DNA of 40,342 nt from Deltaproteobacteria bacterium (lineage in GTDB: Bacteria > Desulfobacterota > Binatia > HRBIN30). A program made the translations under genes and the position numbers. The notes under the pieces are model-generated. The model was not told where the DNA came from, searched no databases, and saw only the letters and a list, made by a program, of their open reading frames with translations. Positions within the stretch are counted from its first letter, which is position 1, and every line of letters starts with the position of its first letter. Below are positions 32,438 through 39,699 of the stretch, piece after piece. Location of the stretch: positions 1 through 40,342 of the forward strand of contig JAGDMS010000004.1 of the NCBI GenBank assembly GCA_017860575.1, given 5' to 3'.

Positions 32438-33121
32438 TCAACTGTGCGCGACGACGAACTCGCGCCGCACACGCAACGCCAGCAGGCCGTCCGCCTCGCG
32501 GTTCTCCTGAAGAAACTTGGCTACCGTTCCAAATTCGGACGGGTCGAAGATCTCAGCGCAGCGGTCCACCAGTTCCTGATAGGTCTCGTCGGGCATCGGC
32601 GCGATACTGACCGCCGGATCGTCGGCGTCGTCGAACGCGACGGACAGGTCGTCGGGGCGAACGTGGCTGATGACCTCGTGAACGAGCGAGACGAAGCGGT
32701 CGAGTGTCGTGAGGCGCAGGGCGTGCGGTTGAAACGTGCGATCGAGGCCACGGCGTAGGTCGTAGTCGTCGATCAATACCCTGGCGCTCGCCAGGTGCAG
32801 TGCCCCCGGCGCGAAGCGGTACGTACGCGGCTCGTCAATCGAGGTGCGGCTGCTGACCACCACGTAGGTCTGCTGGCCGTCGGTGGCTTCGAACGTAATG
32901 GCGGCCATCGGATCCCACAGCGGATGGTCGGACGAGGCTTCGGCACCGTGGCGTCGGAACCAGGCCAGCTGGTGCGTCTGGTGCTCGCCGATAAATTGCC
33001 CGAACGCGACGAGCGACTCGTTGGTTGCGTCGTCCGGCGGATTGGCCGCGGCGCAGACCGCTGGATGCAGCAGCCCGCAGTCACGACAGGCAACGAACAG
33101 CATGTTTCCCCCGGTGACCAT
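32438..33121 (-). CDS. Conserved hypothetical protein
   Basis: 227 aa intact ORF with bacterial-looking composition, adjoining the REC-HK gene; start may be MLFVACRDCG (about 33103). No domain recognised. Confidence 0.65.
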   Translation of the reverse strand: MVTGGNMLFVACRDCGLLHPAVCAAANPPDDATNESLVAFGQFIGEHQTHQLAWFRRHGAEASSDHPLWDPMAAITFEATDGQQTYVVVSSRTSIDEPRTYRFAPGALHLASARVLIDDYDLRRGLDRTFQPHALRLTTLDRFVSLVHEVISHVRPDDLSVAFDDADDPAVSIAPMPDETYQELVDRCAEIFDPSEFGTVAKFLQENREADGLLALRVRREFVVAHS

Positions 33122-34224
33122 CAGTGCAGGAATGCGTTTGGACTGCCCGGCCGGGTTGGGATGGTTAACGTGACCCGGGTGCCGCGACCGCGTTCGCTAG
33201 CCACGTGTAATTGGCCGCCCATCAACTCCGTCAACCGCGTTGCGATGCGCAAACCCAAGCCAAGGCCTCGGTAGCGGCGCCGCGAGGAGGGATCCGCCTG
33301 GGACAGTCCCTCCATCACCCGGGAAATTTCGTCATGATCCATGCCGATGCCGGTGTCGGCAATTTCAATCTCGATGGCGGTGGTATGCGGCGCCCGCCGC
33401 GCCGCGATCGAGATCATGCCGCTCTGAGTGAACTTCACGGCATTGTCGAGCAGGGCCCAGAGGACCCGTTCCAGCTTCTCGGTGTCGGCGACCACGCTCA
33501 GGTCGGCAAGCGCGATGTCCACGCCCAGGAGCAAACCCTTTTCGGCGGCAGCCGGCTGAAACTTGTCGGCTGCGTGCCGGACGATCTCAGCGAGATCGGT
33601 GCGCTCCAAGTTGAGGGTCACGTCGCCGGAGTCGATGGCGGTGAGCAGCAACACGCTTTCCACCAGCGAGAGCAGTTCGGCGGAATTGGCCTGGATCCGC
33701 TCCAGGGCGCTGCGTTGATCCTCGTCCACCACCTTCTCGAGCTCTTCGGCGAGGATGGCGCTGTATCCGATGATCGCGCTCAAGGGGGTGCGCAACTCGT
33801 GCGACAGGTTTGCCAGGAAATCCTCCTTCATGCGGCGCGTGCGCTGGTTCGCCCGCCGCCGTGCCACCGCGCGGCGCACCAGATCGGAGATCTGCGGGAC
33901 GTCGAACGGCTTGGAAACATAGTCGAACACGCCCTGGCGCAGTCCGCGGATGGCGGAGTCGAGCGAACTGTACCCGGTGACGATGATCACCTCGACGTCA
34001 GGGTCGAAGGCCTTGATGTGCTCCATCACTTCCACGCCCGACATCACCGGCATACGGAGGTCCAACGTCACGACGTCGATGGGGGTTGAGCGGATGATGT
34101 CGAGCGCTTGCGGGCCGCTGCTCGCAGTGAAGACGTTGTAGGACGGCTTGAAAATCATTCGGAGTGATTCCGCCGGTCCCCGTTCGTCGTCGACGATCAG
34201 GAGGGATGCACGCTCTTCAACCAT
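33121..34224 (-). CDS. REC-HisKA-HATPase hybrid histidine kinase
   Basis: LLIVDDERGPAES...VVTLDLRMPVMSG receiver; FLANLSHELRTPLSAIIGYS H-box; ALLDNAVKFTQSG, ADTGIGMD, GLGLGLRIATRL. Confidence 0.94.
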   Translation of the reverse strand: MVEERASLLIVDDERGPAESLRMIFKPSYNVFTASSGPQALDIIRSTPIDVVTLDLRMPVMSGVEVMEHIKAFDPDVEVIIVTGYSSLDSAIRGLRQGVFDYVSKPFDVPQISDLVRRAVARRRANQRTRRMKEDFLANLSHELRTPLSAIIGYSAILAEELEKVVDEDQRSALERIQANSAELLSLVESVLLLTAIDSGDVTLNLERTDLAEIVRHAADKFQPAAAEKGLLLGVDIALADLSVVADTEKLERVLWALLDNAVKFTQSGMISIAARRAPHTTAIEIEIADTGIGMDHDEISRVMEGLSQADPSSRRRYRGLGLGLRIATRLTELMGGQLHVASERGRGTRVTLTIPTRPGSPNAFLH

Positions 34225-34582: not shown

Positions 34583-34642
34583 TCGGCGCTGGCGATGCCC
34601 AGCTTGTCCATGATGCAATCGAGGCGCTGTGCGTTCGGTAGG
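34583..34642 (-). repeat. Copy 1 of duplicated C-terminal coding tag (...NAQRLDCIMDKLGIASAD*)
   Basis: Roughly 60 bp similar to 36421-36480, in the same orientation, with an in-frame stop in both. Confidence 0.75.
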
Positions 34643-34870
34643 GTTAGCGCAGTATGAAAAATCATGGAACTTCTCGCTTGGTGGGTCCGCTCAATTCGCC
34701 TGGGCGTGCGGCGGCAGTGGCGTGGCTCAAAGCCGTGCGAGAAGGTCCAAAAGCCACAGCCCAAACCGGGCACAGCGCGCTAGGAGCGATGAATGGGGGG
34801 CGATAAGGGCAGGGTCGCTATCCACTGCACGCCCCCCAGGCGACAGGGCCATCTCGTCGCGCTGGGAAGC

Positions 34871-35362
34871 CTACGCTGGTCTGCACTCCGGGAGCGCACA
34901 GATATCGCCATTGTTCAACACCTGCCCCTCAGTGCAAGGATTGAGAGAGGGCGGGTCCTCACAAGTGAATTCGATGGAGATAATTCGAATCGGGTTCGGA
35001 CAGTTACTCTGCAAATACTGCGGTGCACCGGGATCAAACGGGCTGACGGTTTGCTTCCCGCAGTCGGCATCCTTGATCGTAATGGTGTTGCCGTTCGCGT
35101 ATGCGAGGCCTGCCAGCGCGGTCAGCGCAGCCACCAACGCGACCTTGCCGACTGCCCCTGCGCGTGTACGCCGCAGGAGATGTGCACCACCGCCCGCAAG
35201 CATGACACCCAGCAGGACCATCATGGGTATGCTCATGGCAGGTGCAGGCACATACGGAGCAGTCGTCACAGTGCCGATGAACTCGGCATATGCAACCGTC
35301 GCGAGTGGCCCCACCAGCGTCGCCAGGCCACCGACGATCTGAAGCAATCTGCGCGGCATCAT
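34871..35362 (-). CDS. Probable midcut-by-XrtH-type protein (internal exosortase signal)
   Basis: MMPRRLLQIVGGLATLVGPLATVAYA signal, internal PAPAMSIPMMVLLGVMLAGGGAHLLRRTRAG sorting-like segment, second TM, then Cys-containing C-terminal domain NGNTITIKDADCGKQTV.... Confidence 0.5.
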   Translation of the reverse strand: MMPRRLLQIVGGLATLVGPLATVAYAEFIGTVTTAPYVPAPAMSIPMMVLLGVMLAGGGAHLLRRTRAGAVGKVALVAALTALAGLAYANGNTITIKDADCGKQTVSPFDPGAPQYLQSNCPNPIRIISIEFTCEDPPSLNPCTEGQVLNNGDICALPECRPA

Positions 35363-35496
35363 GGACAAGCCCTCCCTCCTCATCAACGGGGTGCGCTCCC
35401 GGCCACGCATTGTCTAGCGCAAAAGCGGTTCGGATCAAAGAGCACTGGCCCGCGCACCCGTTCGGCGACTCTGTGGTTGCAGGCACGGGGGCGGCG

Positions 35497-35723
35497 ATGA
35501 CGACGGCAGCGAGGCGCCGCGCGGCACAGGCGGCGTTGATGAGCATTCTCGTGCCGATCGCCGACCCCAAGGTGTGTGGGCGGTTCTTCGAGTGGGCGAC
35601 GTGGGACACGTGGAAGGTGCTTCTCGCAAGGTGTTCGGGCTCCCGATGACCCCGGAGATGCTGGCGCTCTGGCAGAAGTACACCGGCCGCACGCAGGCGC
35701 CGGGCGCTGCCGTAACTCAGTGA
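35497..35723 (+). pseudogene. Frameshifted N-terminal remnant of a phage terminase large subunit-like gene
   Basis: Frame 1 MTTAARRRAAQAALMSILVPIADPKVCGRFFEWATWDTWKVLLA, continuing in another frame from about 35620 as KVFGLPMTPEMLALWQKYTGRTQAPGAAVTQ*; together resembles a TerL N-terminus. Confidence 0.5.
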
Positions 35724-35750
35724 GTGATGGTCTGCATCGCATGGCGAGGT

Positions 35751-35798
35751 CTTTAGCCGGCTTTAGCCGGAGGCGAACCCACCGCCTTCAGGCGGTGG
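35751..35798. repeat. 10-bp tandem duplication followed by perfect 8-bp stem hairpin
   Basis: CTTTAGCCGG x2 (35751-35770), then CCACCGCC-TTCA-GGCGGTGG (35779-35798). Confidence 0.7.
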
Positions 35799-35802
35799 AG
35801 CC

Positions 35803-36000
35803 TCAGTGCAACGTCGGGTCCGGATCAGGGATGGGCTTGCCCACGTCGGAGAGCACAATCCAGGCAGCGAGACAGCGCACGCAGTGGCGATGCCAGTGCG
35901 TCCCGTCGAGACCAGTGCAGTCGGGGGCCGGTTCTGCCGGGCCGCAGCGCTCCATCAGCGAGTAGCGATAGCCACAGGTAGGGCAGGGCAGGGCGGCCAT
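35803..36000 (-). CDS. Small zinc-ribbon-like hypothetical protein
   Basis: MAALPCPTCGYRYSLMERCGPAEPAPDCTGLDGTHWHRHCVRCLAAWIVL..., CxxC...HxxHCVRC pattern. Confidence 0.5.
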   Translation of the reverse strand: MAALPCPTCGYRYSLMERCGPAEPAPDCTGLDGTHWHRHCVRCLAAWIVLSDVGKPIPDPDPTLH

Positions 36001-36007
36001 GACAGCG

Positions 36008-36187
36008 TTACCGGCAGGCCTTCGAGGGCTTCCAGGGGCTCGGCTGATCGAGCCCCTGTGTCAGCACATGCTCCGCCGACCCGAGCAGCAGGAACGGCAC
36101 CGCCAACGGCAGCAGCACAACAGCGAGCGCCAGGCGCCCGCCCCACACCCCTTCAACCACCCACCGCTTGCGTTCCACGCACTTCAT
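36008..36187 (-). CDS. Small single-TM protein, phage-like
   Basis: 59-aa ORF under the track cutoff: MKCVERKRWVVEGVWGGRLALAVVLLPLAVPFLLLGSAEHVLTQGLDQPSPWKPSKACR*, same strand and adjacent to the 35803-36000 ORF. Confidence 0.35.
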   Translation of the reverse strand: MKCVERKRWVVEGVWGGRLALAVVLLPLAVPFLLLGSAEHVLTQGLDQPSPWKPSKACR

Positions 36188-36420
36188 GCCGCACTCCCAT
36201 ACCGGCCGCCACAGCGGGCACGACCGGGGCCCGAATCAACAGAACGTTAACGGCACGAAGCGCGGCAGGCGGTAGCGCACTGCACGCACAGCGACCTCGA
36301 ACAGGGTGTTTCGAATGCTCAACGTCATGGTTCCACGCTACACCCTGCGCGCGTTCAAACAAGTGGGGGGGCACGTGGCGTAACGCAGCGCTAGCTGATT
36401 GTCTCCGGAGGATGACCTAC

Positions 36421-36480
36421 TCGGCGCTGGCAATTCCCAGCTTGTCCATGATGCAATCGACGTGTTGCCTGTTCGCTGGG
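36421..36480 (-). repeat. Copy 2 of duplicated C-terminal coding tag (...PANRQHVDCIMDKLGIASAE*)
   Basis: See copy 1; stop TAG at 36418-36420. Confidence 0.75.
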
Positions 36481-36576: not shown

Positions 36577-36639
36577 TTGACCAGTTCGCCGCGGCTAGGC
36601 TGATCACCGAAAACCCGGCACCACACCGGGCCGCCGCGG
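36577..36639 (+). repeat. 63-bp direct repeat, copy A, in the leader of the dockerin/DUF1566 gene
   Basis: TTGACCAGTTCGCCGCGGCTAGGCTGATCACCGAAAACCCGGCACCACACCGGGCCGCCGCGG, identical to 37521-37583. Confidence 0.97.
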
Positions 36640-36682
36640 GGATTCTCTCCGTGCGGAGCGCAATTCAACCGAGGAGGGTGAA

Positions 36683-37423
36683 ATGAAGCGTGCACGAACG
36701 AAAGCGGCGATGGTGGTACTGCTGTGGGGGTTCGGGGTGGTGTGGAGCCCCCCGCGGGCGGTGGGCCAGTGTTGCGGGGACTGCAACGGCGATGGACAGG
36801 TGACCATCGATGAGATCCTCAAAGCGGTCAACCGGGCACTGGGGGGCACTTGCACGTCCCAATCCGGCGGGCAGCGGTTCCCGGCCACGGGGCAGACGAG
36901 CTGCTGGGATCCCAACGGCACCGTGATCGCCTGCAGCGGCACGGGTCAAGATGGTCAGATTCAGGCTGGTGGCGCCTTGGCCTACGTCGACAACGGCGAC
37001 GGGACCATCACTGACCTCAACACGCATTTGATGTGGGAGAAGAAGAGCGCTGACGGCAGCATTCATGGTTGGGACAATCCCTACACGTGGGCAGGTGCGT
37101 TCACCACGTTCATTGTCGGACTGAACGCGGGTGGTGGCTTTGCGGGGCATACGGACTGGCGGTTGCCGAACGTCAAGGAATTGCAGGGCATCATCAACTA
37201 CCAGAACGTCGTTCCGGCGGTCAGCGCGGCCTTCAACGCCAACTGCGCGCCGGGCTGCACCGTGACAACGTGCAGTTGCACGCAGTCGGGCGGATACTGG
37301 TCGTCTACTACGTACCAGCTCGGTCCTAACTCCGCGTGGAGCGTGTTCTTCCTCGACGGCGGCATGAACGGCAACGATAAGCGCGACGGCCTCTCTGTCC
37401 GTGCCGTTCGTGGCGGCTCATGA
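36683..37423 (+). CDS. Secreted protein with dockerin-like EF-hand segment and DUF1566 (Lcl C-terminal type) domain
   Basis: Signal peptide, CCGDCNGDGQVTIDEILKAVNRALGGTC, then GDGTITDLNTHLMWEKKSADGS...GHTDWRLPNVKELQGIINY...YWSSTTY...VRAVRGG. Confidence 0.88.
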   Translation: MKRARTKAAMVVLLWGFGVVWSPPRAVGQCCGDCNGDGQVTIDEILKAVNRALGGTCTSQSGGQRFPATGQTSCWDPNGTVIACSGTGQDGQIQAGGALAYVDNGDGTITDLNTHLMWEKKSADGSIHGWDNPYTWAGAFTTFIVGLNAGGGFAGHTDWRLPNVKELQGIINYQNVVPAVSAAFNANCAPGCTVTTCSCTQSGGYWSSTTYQLGPNSAWSVFFLDGGMNGNDKRDGLSVRAVRGGS

Positions 37424-37520
37424 TCGATATATCGGCTTGAGTTGGGATGAACAAAGGCCGCAGAAAGGCGCCCGGCGCGCTGATGCGGCTGGGCTTTGTT
37501 TGCAGTATTGTGATCGCGTG

Positions 37521-37583
37521 TTGACCAGTTCGCCGCGGCTAGGCTGATCACCGAAAACCCGGCACCACACCGGGCCGCCGCGG
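37521..37583 (+). repeat. 63-bp direct repeat, copy B, in the leader of the 37617 ORF
   Basis: Identical 63 bp to copy A; in copy B TCGCCGCGGC (37530-37539) pairs perfectly with GCCGCGGCGA (37577-37586), enclosing CCCGG-N7-CCGGG. Confidence 0.97.
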
Positions 37584-37616
37584 CGATTTCCTTGTGGGCA
37601 CCAAGTGGGAGGTGCA

Positions 37617-38375
37617 ATGGCAATCAAGAAAGAAAAGGCGGCTGCGGCATTCAGGAAGCGCAAGATTCCTTCAGAAGAAGCCAAGCGGTTTGCGCAGTGG
37701 CAGGGAGAGCAGGAACGGCGGCTTCGAGAATGGCTGGAACAATTCAAGTTCGTAAAGGCACCGATCGCGCCAGGTACGCTACGGCGGCTTAAGGTGGAAC
37801 TTCCCGACGAAGTGTGGCGCCAAGTCACGCCGACACTCCCTCTTGAGGCTGCAACGGCATTTTCCGTCAGGGAACGACTCCATGATCGCGCTGCCGACTC
37901 ATGGCGCGAAGGCGAACTGCATCAACTCGTCACCCGGAGCAAGAAGGAAGCGATTAATCGACGGTGTCGCCCGGATCAGGAGGTCGTCAATCTGTACTGG
38001 AAATCTGGGGCGGCGGCGATCGCAAATGCGGCCCAGGGTGCGTTAGAACAGCGCCTCCCCGTCCGCTGCTTTCTTGCCGGGTTGCGGCTTGCCCAGATAA
38101 ACCTTGAAGCCGGTTTCCCTGAAATTAGCCGTTCGATCAAAGCCTTCGATCGAGCAGGGCCAGAGCAATATGCACGGGAGCAAGCAAAAGGCATTGTCAT
38201 TACCGAAGCGCGGCGGCTGTTCAACCAGCGCTCCAGTCGGAGGCCCTCCGGCAAAGAGGTTGCCGAGCTTATCGCCGGCATGGACTTGGTGCAGGAGCGA
38301 ATTGAGAATCTGATCGGGCAGCCGTGGAAGGCATCCAACATCCGCAGGATACTTCGAGAAGCAAAACTGAAATAG
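37617..38375 (+). CDS. Hypothetical protein
   Basis: 252 aa MAIKKEKAAAAFRKRKIPSEEAKRF...QPWKASNIRRILREAKLK*, with GGGAGG SD; no domain recognised. Confidence 0.75.
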   Translation: MAIKKEKAAAAFRKRKIPSEEAKRFAQWQGEQERRLREWLEQFKFVKAPIAPGTLRRLKVELPDEVWRQVTPTLPLEAATAFSVRERLHDRAADSWREGELHQLVTRSKKEAINRRCRPDQEVVNLYWKSGAAAIANAAQGALEQRLPVRCFLAGLRLAQINLEAGFPEISRSIKAFDRAGPEQYAREQAKGIVITEARRLFNQRSSRRPSGKEVAELIAGMDLVQERIENLIGQPWKASNIRRILREAKLK

Positions 38376-38406: not shown

Positions 38407-38438
38407 GCGTGCGATGCTGCATACAGCATGTCGCACGC
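38407..38438. repeat. Imperfect inverted repeat covering the start codon of the downstream HTH gene
   Basis: GCGTGCGATGCTG-CATA-CAGCATGTCGCACGC: 13 bp paired with a 2-nt bulge; ATG 38428 lies in the right arm. Confidence 0.9.
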
Positions 38439-38643
38439 CAACATAAACGAATTTCTTGAGTCAGCTGATGTTGCCCGCCTTCGCGGCGTGACGCCGGCGA
38501 CAGTCCGGCGCGATGCCGCGCGCGGGGTCCTCCCCGTTGCGGCGGTGACCAGCAAGGGCACTCGTCTCTTCAGACGCGAGGATGCCGAGCGCTATGCGGC
38601 ACGGGGTGGAGGGGTGGGGGATGGTCAGGGCGCCCGCGCGTAG
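38428..38643 (+). CDS. Small HTH (excisionase/AlpA/MerR-like) DNA-binding protein
   Basis: MSHANINEFLESADVARLRGVTPATVRRDAARGVLPVAAVTSKGTRLFRREDAERYAARGG winged-HTH/excisionase pattern. Confidence 0.8.
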   Translation: MSHANINEFLESADVARLRGVTPATVRRDAARGVLPVAAVTSKGTRLFRREDAERYAARGGGVGDGQGARA

Positions 38644-38848
38644 GCCCCCCGTGGGGGGCCCAGCACTGGCGGACGCGCTCCGGCATCTTCGACGAGTCAG
38701 CAACTCGCTGAACCGGCGCCTCCTGGCCGCCCGGCGCCGCGGTGACGTGTTGCGCGAGGACTTCTTCGCCACCGCGCTCATCCGGCTCAACACTGCGACG
38801 GACGATCTCCGCGAACTCCACGCCTATCTGAAAGCGGAGCAGCCGTGA
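38621..38848 (+). CDS. Small helical hypothetical protein
   Basis: MVRAPARRPPVGGPALADALRHLRRVSNSLNRRLLAARRRGDVLREDFFATALIRLNTATDDLRELHAYLKAEQP*, overlaps neighbours as in a compact element operon. Confidence 0.6.
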   Translation: MVRAPARRPPVGGPALADALRHLRRVSNSLNRRLLAARRRGDVLREDFFATALIRLNTATDDLRELHAYLKAEQP

Positions 38849-39699
38849 CGCAGCCGGACCCCACAGTGATCCCGCTCACGCTGCGCGCTCTGCCGCACTG
38901 GGTGTGTTGGCAGACCGTCGACCGGGCAGGCAAGGCAACGAAGGTTCCTATCGATGCGAAGACCGGCGCCTTCGCGTCGGTCATGGACTCGACAACGTGG
39001 AGTCCGTTTGCAATCGCTCTGGCGGCGGCGGATCGCTTCGACGGCCTGGGCTTTGTGCTCACAGGCGCGCCCCCCTTCGTGGTCGGTGTCGATCTCGACG
39101 CCTGCCGTGATCCCGAAACGGGCGTGCTGCATCCGACTGCGCAAGAGATCATCGGGCGACTCGGCACCTATGCGGAAGTGAGCCCGAGCGGCCGCGGTGT
39201 GCATTGCCTGGGCCTTGCCGAGATTCCCGCGGACCATCCCTGCCGCACGGGTACGATCGAGGTCTACAGCCGGAAGCGCTTTCTCACCGTGACTGGCTGG
39301 CACCTCGAGGGCACCCCCGGCGAGGTGCAGGACATCACCCGGGGGCTCTACTGGCTGTTCAAGACGTTCTTCGCCACACGCCCACAGCCGGCGAGCGCCC
39401 GCCCCCGCACCACGGTCACGATGACCGATCACATGGTGATCGAGAAGGCACTTGCCGCCCGCAACGGTGTGGAGTTCGCCAAATTGTGGGAGGGCGACTG
39501 GCAAGCCGCCGGGTACATGAGCCAGAGCGAAGCGGACCTAGCGCTGCTGTCGCACCTCGCGTTCTGGACGAACGGTGACGCCGCCCAGATGGAACGCCTG
39601 TTCGCGGCGTCGGGCCTGGCGCGGCCGAAGTGGGTGCAGCGTGCCGACTATCGGGCGCGGACGCTGGCACGGGCCCTGGCGGGGGTGGGTCATGCCTGA
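38845..39699 (+). CDS. Primase-polymerase, phage NrS-1 polymerase-like
   Basis: LPHWVCWQTV...KVPIDAKTGAFASVMDSTTWSPFAIAL...GLGFVLTGAPPFVVGVDLDACRDPETG...SPSGRGVHCLG, C-terminal SQSEADLALLSHLAFWTNGDAAQMERLFAASGL helical domain. Confidence 0.85.
   Translation: MTQPDPTVIPLTLRALPHWVCWQTVDRAGKATKVPIDAKTGAFASVMDSTTWSPFAIALAAADRFDGLGFVLTGAPPFVVGVDLDACRDPETGVLHPTAQEIIGRLGTYAEVSPSGRGVHCLGLAEIPADHPCRTGTIEVYSRKRFLTVTGWHLEGTPGEVQDITRGLYWLFKTFFATRPQPASARPRTTVTMTDHMVIEKALAARNGVEFAKLWEGDWQAAGYMSQSEADLALLSHLAFWTNGDAAQMERLFAASGLARPKWVQRADYRARTLARALAGVGHA

Follow-up and report, generated by a model that had tools for sequence, protein, structure and literature searches.

The 63-bp repeat that precedes two adjacent genes of the window (i.e. 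the whole stretch of 40,342 nucleotides analysed here) consists of two copies of int-alpA RNA, a known family (Rfam RF02996). We favour, with a probability of about 0.7, a joint account in which both copies are int-alpA leaders: the downstream one, copy B, would be complete and control translation at the head of the early operon of an integrative element, while the upstream one, copy A, would be a recent truncated duplicate associated with a host-type cargo gene. As the family itself is already known, the useful part of the analysis is the architecture of the leader. The features are collected in Table 1.

Table 1. Position, strand and basis of the features of the window
Feature	Positions	Strand	Basis
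Histidine kinase gene, chromosomal flank, with the regulator gene on its 5' side in relatives	33121..34224	-	gene order in relatives
att1, outer left site with presumed native regulator 3' end, histidine-kinase side	34598..34611	-
att-flanked unit of 1.84 kb without integrase	34612..36430	.	arms like those of the main element
Gene weakly like midcut-by-XrtH	34871-35410	minus	score below curated cut-off
att2, where the small unit abuts the main element's left end	36431..36449	-	19 nt identical to attR on C469
Duplicated tract, copy A	36577..36644	+	63 identical, 1 mismatch, 4 identical
Copy A, int-alpA match, 3'-truncated (duplicated part to about 36639)	36588..36656	+	cmscan
Dockerin-like and Lcl_C (DUF1566) gene, 246 aa, host-type cargo	36683..37423	+	Pfam Lcl_C 1.7e-26
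Duplicated tract, copy B	37521..37588	+	comparison with copy A
Copy B, complete int-alpA RNA, P1/P2/P3	37532..37598	+	cmscan, E 2.2e-8
Pseudoknot 3' strand UGUGG, partner P3 loop CCACA (37565-37569)	37593..37597	+	5-bp run; family swap and covariation
Hairpin P4, GCACC-AAGUGGGA-GGUGC, over the Shine-Dalgarno GGGAGG of the 252-aa gene	37598..37615	+	predicted pairing; family swap test
252-aa gene, first after copy B, in no known family	37617..38375	+	Pfam, PHROGs, NCBIfam
AlpA/MerR-type helix-turn-helix protein	38428..38643	+	Pfam HTH_17/MerR; PHROG 66 excisionase
Satellite/phage-type DNA primase (NrS-1-like)	38845..39699	+	PHROG 1829, E 9.9e-70; Pfam NrS1-1_pol-like_HBD

The repeat is a pair of int-alpA RNAs

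The tracts 36577-36644 and 37521-37588, spaced by 944, are identical at 67/68 positions, of which 63 are consecutive. Since an exact match of 63 bases falls within 3.6 kb, the repeat is not due to chance. Direct comparison confirmed both the repeat of the first-pass annotation (63 bp, 67 of 68 with the extension) and its place upstream of the ATGs of two different genes, 36683 (dockerin-like and Lcl_C/DUF1566) for copy A and 37617 (252 aa) for copy B. In copy A the duplication extends in effect only to 36639: the sole mismatch, at 36640 (C to G), breaks the terminal pair of P1, and the four matching bases that follow it could be a chance match. These are the two copies of the whole assembly, with no third, and an exact 33-mer of the repeat gave no match in IMG/VR.

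By cmscan both copies match the full 71-position RF02996 model above its gathering score of 35.8 (47.6 bits for copy B and 38.6 bits for copy A), and they are the only Rfam matches of the window. The three-helix fold P1/P2/P3 is present with its UAGG and CCGAAAA core, the end pair of P1 being broken in copy A. The fold that had been described for copy B is borne out, with mean pair probabilities of 1.0 for P1 and 0.74 for P3. The family's association with an integrase and alpA is found as well, with an AlpA-type gene at 38428 and the integrase on contig C469, at the opposite end of the element. Thus the earlier proposal of a structured RNA leader was right as to the leader, but the leader belongs to a family already in Rfam, so the repeat is not the undescribed system for which it had been taken. 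The simple local duplication that had been named as the refuting outcome comes close to the truth for the duplication itself; the unit repeated is nevertheless a real structured RNA. As the helices of int-alpA differ much between elements and yet 63 bases are identical here, recent copying or gene conversion is indicated; the exact identity could come from gene conversion instead of recent duplication.

The RNA was found in 7/58 genomes of a sample of relatives and in 47/297 genomes of a sample of the phylum (the source genome counted in both); within these samples the source genome alone has two matches on one contig. Pattern scans gave 13 viral stretches, 52 genome stretches and, with a looser pattern, at least 120 viral stretches, with one match each among the matches listed. 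Among these, no other locus of the genomes and contigs examined has a second int-alpA copy nearby. A crude integrase signature lies upstream in 8/87 other int-alpA loci with enough upstream sequence, so an adjacent "int" is not a reliable mark of the family. At one locus int-alpA is immediately followed by an integrase-like gene (L071, 368-1480, minus strand).

Our literature search found int-alpA mentioned only in a presence/absence table of one paper, the discovery paper, reportedly of 2017, being outside its reach. As far as this literature shows, int-alpA is so far a catalogue entry without function.

Architecture of the int-alpA leader

For 154/179 int-alpA loci the leader could be parsed. 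The start codon of the next gene on the same strand lies at a median of 32 nt past P1 (25-75% range 29-36, 138 parsed loci). When made non-redundant, 96 loci including the two of the window have first genes that fall by BLAST into 82 unrelated clusters; the leader is thus what the loci share, and the unrelated genes that had been noticed behind one repeat are normal for int-alpA.

A short stretch 3' of P1, often AGGG, pairs with the loop of P3 to form a pseudoknot. The run between a loop and its own downstream stretch is 4.76 nt, against 3.20 nt when the partners are swapped between loci (sd 0.07, maximum 3.41 in 200 swaps), a result repeated in four separately collected locus sets. Behind the pseudoknot strand stands hairpin P4, with the Shine-Dalgarno in its loop or its 3' arm; in all four locus groups the own stem exceeds in length that of every swapped set. 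The covariation check that had been suggested for the repeat as an RNA was run on a MAFFT alignment of 36 leaders: P1, P2, P3, the pseudoknot and P4 together scored 0.440, versus 0.159 on shuffling and at most 0.174 on sliding, and pairs with changes on both sides occur in every helix. The alignment is poorer for P4 than for the rest of the helices, with 44% of its cells paired, so the support for P4 comes from the swap tests. In the structure line of the Rfam model the AGGG stretch is unpaired and the model ends there; the pseudoknot and the Shine-Dalgarno hairpin go beyond that line.

Because of the fixed spacing, the pseudoknot and the co-varying hairpin over the Shine-Dalgarno, int-alpA looks like a 5' leader that controls translation, despite its Rfam type. 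That type, "Gene; sRNA", and the compact domain formed by P1-P3 with the pseudoknot would both suit a free-standing small RNA whose place before a gene is incidental. But neither a constant spacing of about 32 nt to a start codon on the same strand nor a co-varying hairpin over a Shine-Dalgarno is expected of such an RNA, and the interval between RNA and gene in this region contains nothing resembling a terminator, so we hold this explanation to be unlikely. The fixed distance and the Shine-Dalgarno sequestration of a cis-acting translational leader are found in the family and in copy B; copy A does not have them in the same form.

The comparison yields a testable proposal for int-alpA: a 5' leader, built with a pseudoknot and a Shine-Dalgarno hairpin, that in mobile elements precedes first genes unrelated to one another. 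Should a ligand or a protein open it, satellites and prophages would share in int-alpA a common entry switch.

Copy B and the genes behind it

Comparison with the family gives good support to the proposed leader architecture of copy B. In the predicted ensemble the pair probability of its P1 is 1.0, and that of hairpin P4 is 0.97-0.99. The most likely function of copy B, judged from sequence, is control of the translation of the first gene. The leader stands immediately ahead of the gene that opens the element's putative early operon (252 aa, AlpA, primase). Its pseudoknotted P1-P3 domain may stack on hairpin P4 and so keep the ribosome site closed, and a signal or a protein would open this site, a switching step that we infer.

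No Sigma-70 promoter consensus was found near copy A or copy B. Visual inspection suggested a shared -10 box ahead of P1, and a count by position did not confirm it.

The 252-aa protein has no family in Pfam, PHROGs or NCBIfam and no homologues in IMG/VR or phage records; among 148 genomes of the class it has one weak match of 72 aa.

The integrative element and its att sites

The element was reconstructed across two contigs, the window and C469, and its middle is missing. It lies between an NtrC-type regulator gene and the histidine kinase, inserted in the 3' end of the former. In two relatives (G001 and G008) the kinase adjoins the regulator gene. In the source genome the pair is split, the regulator gene being on C469 and followed directly by a tyrosine integrase. 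The att core ATGGACAAGCTGGG, which lies in the 3' end of the regulator gene, is present on C469, at 36431-36449 and at 34598-34611. In a third genome (G012) a related integrase (56%) directly adjoins that same regulator gene and a related primase lies in the region, and a fourth (G013) has an integrase relative (45%) near the gene. From the att cores, the split neighbours and the pairing of integrase and target, we infer an integrative element that starts at 36431 and whose left part is in the window. As the element replaces the last codons of the regulator gene, the att junctions encode slightly different C-termini; this replacement is seen on C469 (L255, 3716-3775), and the C-termini are MDKLGIVEPG, MDKLGIASAE and MDKLGIASAD. 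In G012, a sister element beside the same regulator gene (L270, contig C7, 3262-13384) carries an AlpA-type gene, a primase and an integrase.

Copy A lies within the element, about 140 bp from its left end. In the linear map no integrase stands directly upstream, since it sits at the other end; once circular, the element would read integrase, attP, copy A, DUF1566, copy B, 252 aa, AlpA, primase. As in the Rfam family, an AlpA-type gene lies downstream and, in the inferred circular form, an integrase upstream; the difference here is the presence of two copies 944 bp apart, the upstream one truncated. By its genes alone, the middle being missing, the element resembles satellites of the phage P4 type, with a tyrosine integrase, an AlpA-type excisionase/regulator and a primase; it differs from them by its insertion in an NtrC-type regulator gene and by its NrS-1-like primase. 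The record of phage P4, of which only the annotation was compared, annotates no int-alpA RNA.

The att sites also bear on the suggestion that the 63-bp tract is a recombination site and that repeat A with the DUF1566 gene forms a mobile cassette of 944 bp. Here one gene is indeed flanked by direct repeats, the tract is nearly exact while its flanks differ, and the DUF1566 gene has chromosomal paralogues. However, the element's integrase uses a different site, the regulator 3' end, with att at 34598, at 36431 and on C469; about 150 other int-alpA loci, among the matches listed, are single-copy and have no such cassette; and the helices drift by paired changes, which fits an RNA better than a fixed recombination core. 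The cassette is therefore unsupported, and we regard it as quite unlikely. For the 63-mer as a site of this integrase, the true att sites elsewhere exclude it; other recombinases are possible, and ordinary homologous recombination over 63 bp could delete the 944-bp unit.

We also considered that the assembly joined unrelated contigs through a shared repeat node, or misplaced a unit. The assembly is fragmented (601 contigs, with an estimated contamination of 6%), and a repeat of 63 bp can confuse short-k assembly. Against this, the assembly has only two copies of the repeat, and att2, immediately to the left of copy A, is where the element's left end would be expected; such an artefact seems very improbable.

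Copy A, a probable truncated duplicate beside a cargo gene

In copy A the duplicate reaches as far as the final base pair of P1, and copy A is without the full pseudoknot partner and the standard hairpin of the family. Its longest run between loop and downstream stretch is 3 nt versus 5 in copy B, and the probability of its P1, in the predicted ensemble, is 0.0-0.62 depending on the stretch folded versus 1.0 in copy B. A weak near-match to the pseudoknot strand remains (UGCGG, with one mismatch), together with a small hairpin around its own Shine-Dalgarno, so copy A is possibly partly functional. The DUF1566 gene has paralogues elsewhere in its own genome, at 60% and 52% identity, and its ribosome site AACCGAGGAGGGTGAAATGAAG resembles that of the chromosomal paralogue on contig C455, AACGGAGGAGCTGACATGAAG. 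Because the duplicate ends at P1, the ribosome site is paralogue-like and the gene has paralogues, we take copy A for a duplicate of domain length that has been joined to a gene of host type.

Most likely, copy A is a recent partial duplication that came with the cargo gene, i.e. a truncated by-product of cargo capture. The 63-bp duplicate of the P1-P3 domain may have arrived recently with the DUF1566 gene, or the insertion of that gene may have created copy A; the insertion place of the dockerin/DUF1566 cargo would be the left end of the element. Copy A is probably not a working translational switch for the DUF1566 gene.

If both copies were working leaders, the duplication would have put the cargo gene under the control of the element. 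The P1-P3 sequence of copy A is intact as far as the final base of P1, first genes without relation to each other are normal behind int-alpA, and the weak pseudoknot partner and the small Shine-Dalgarno hairpin point the same way. But P1 of copy A is disrupted in the predicted ensemble, its pseudoknot run is only 3 nt and its ribosome site looks like that of the paralogue gene, all of which makes a working copy A doubtful. It is similarly doubtful, if conceivable, that satellites and prophages use int-alpA as a modular translational switch, responsive to a signal, ahead of whichever gene opens the early operon, and that its sensing domain was copied here to control a captured surface-protein gene. 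Under the preferred account, with copy B complete and copy A truncated, the tandem is a natural test case within one element.

The sister element of G012 (whose left end is off the contig), the C469 portion of the element and the 1.84-kb unit showed no second or diverged int-alpA RNA.

A small att-flanked unit beside the element

The unit spanning 34598-36449, whose left and right arms resemble those of the main element, may be a non-autonomous passenger. Cis-mobilisable elements (CIMEs) are att-flanked passengers. The unit is like them in having att arms similar to the main element's and no integrase; it differs in being very small, with one recognisable host-type gene. Parts of it recur on three other contigs, C324 (77%), C34 (90%) and C154 (70%, near a stop-containing integrase). 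Its midcut-by-XrtH-like gene, a weak match, would be a second host-type surface-protein cargo gene next to an att site.
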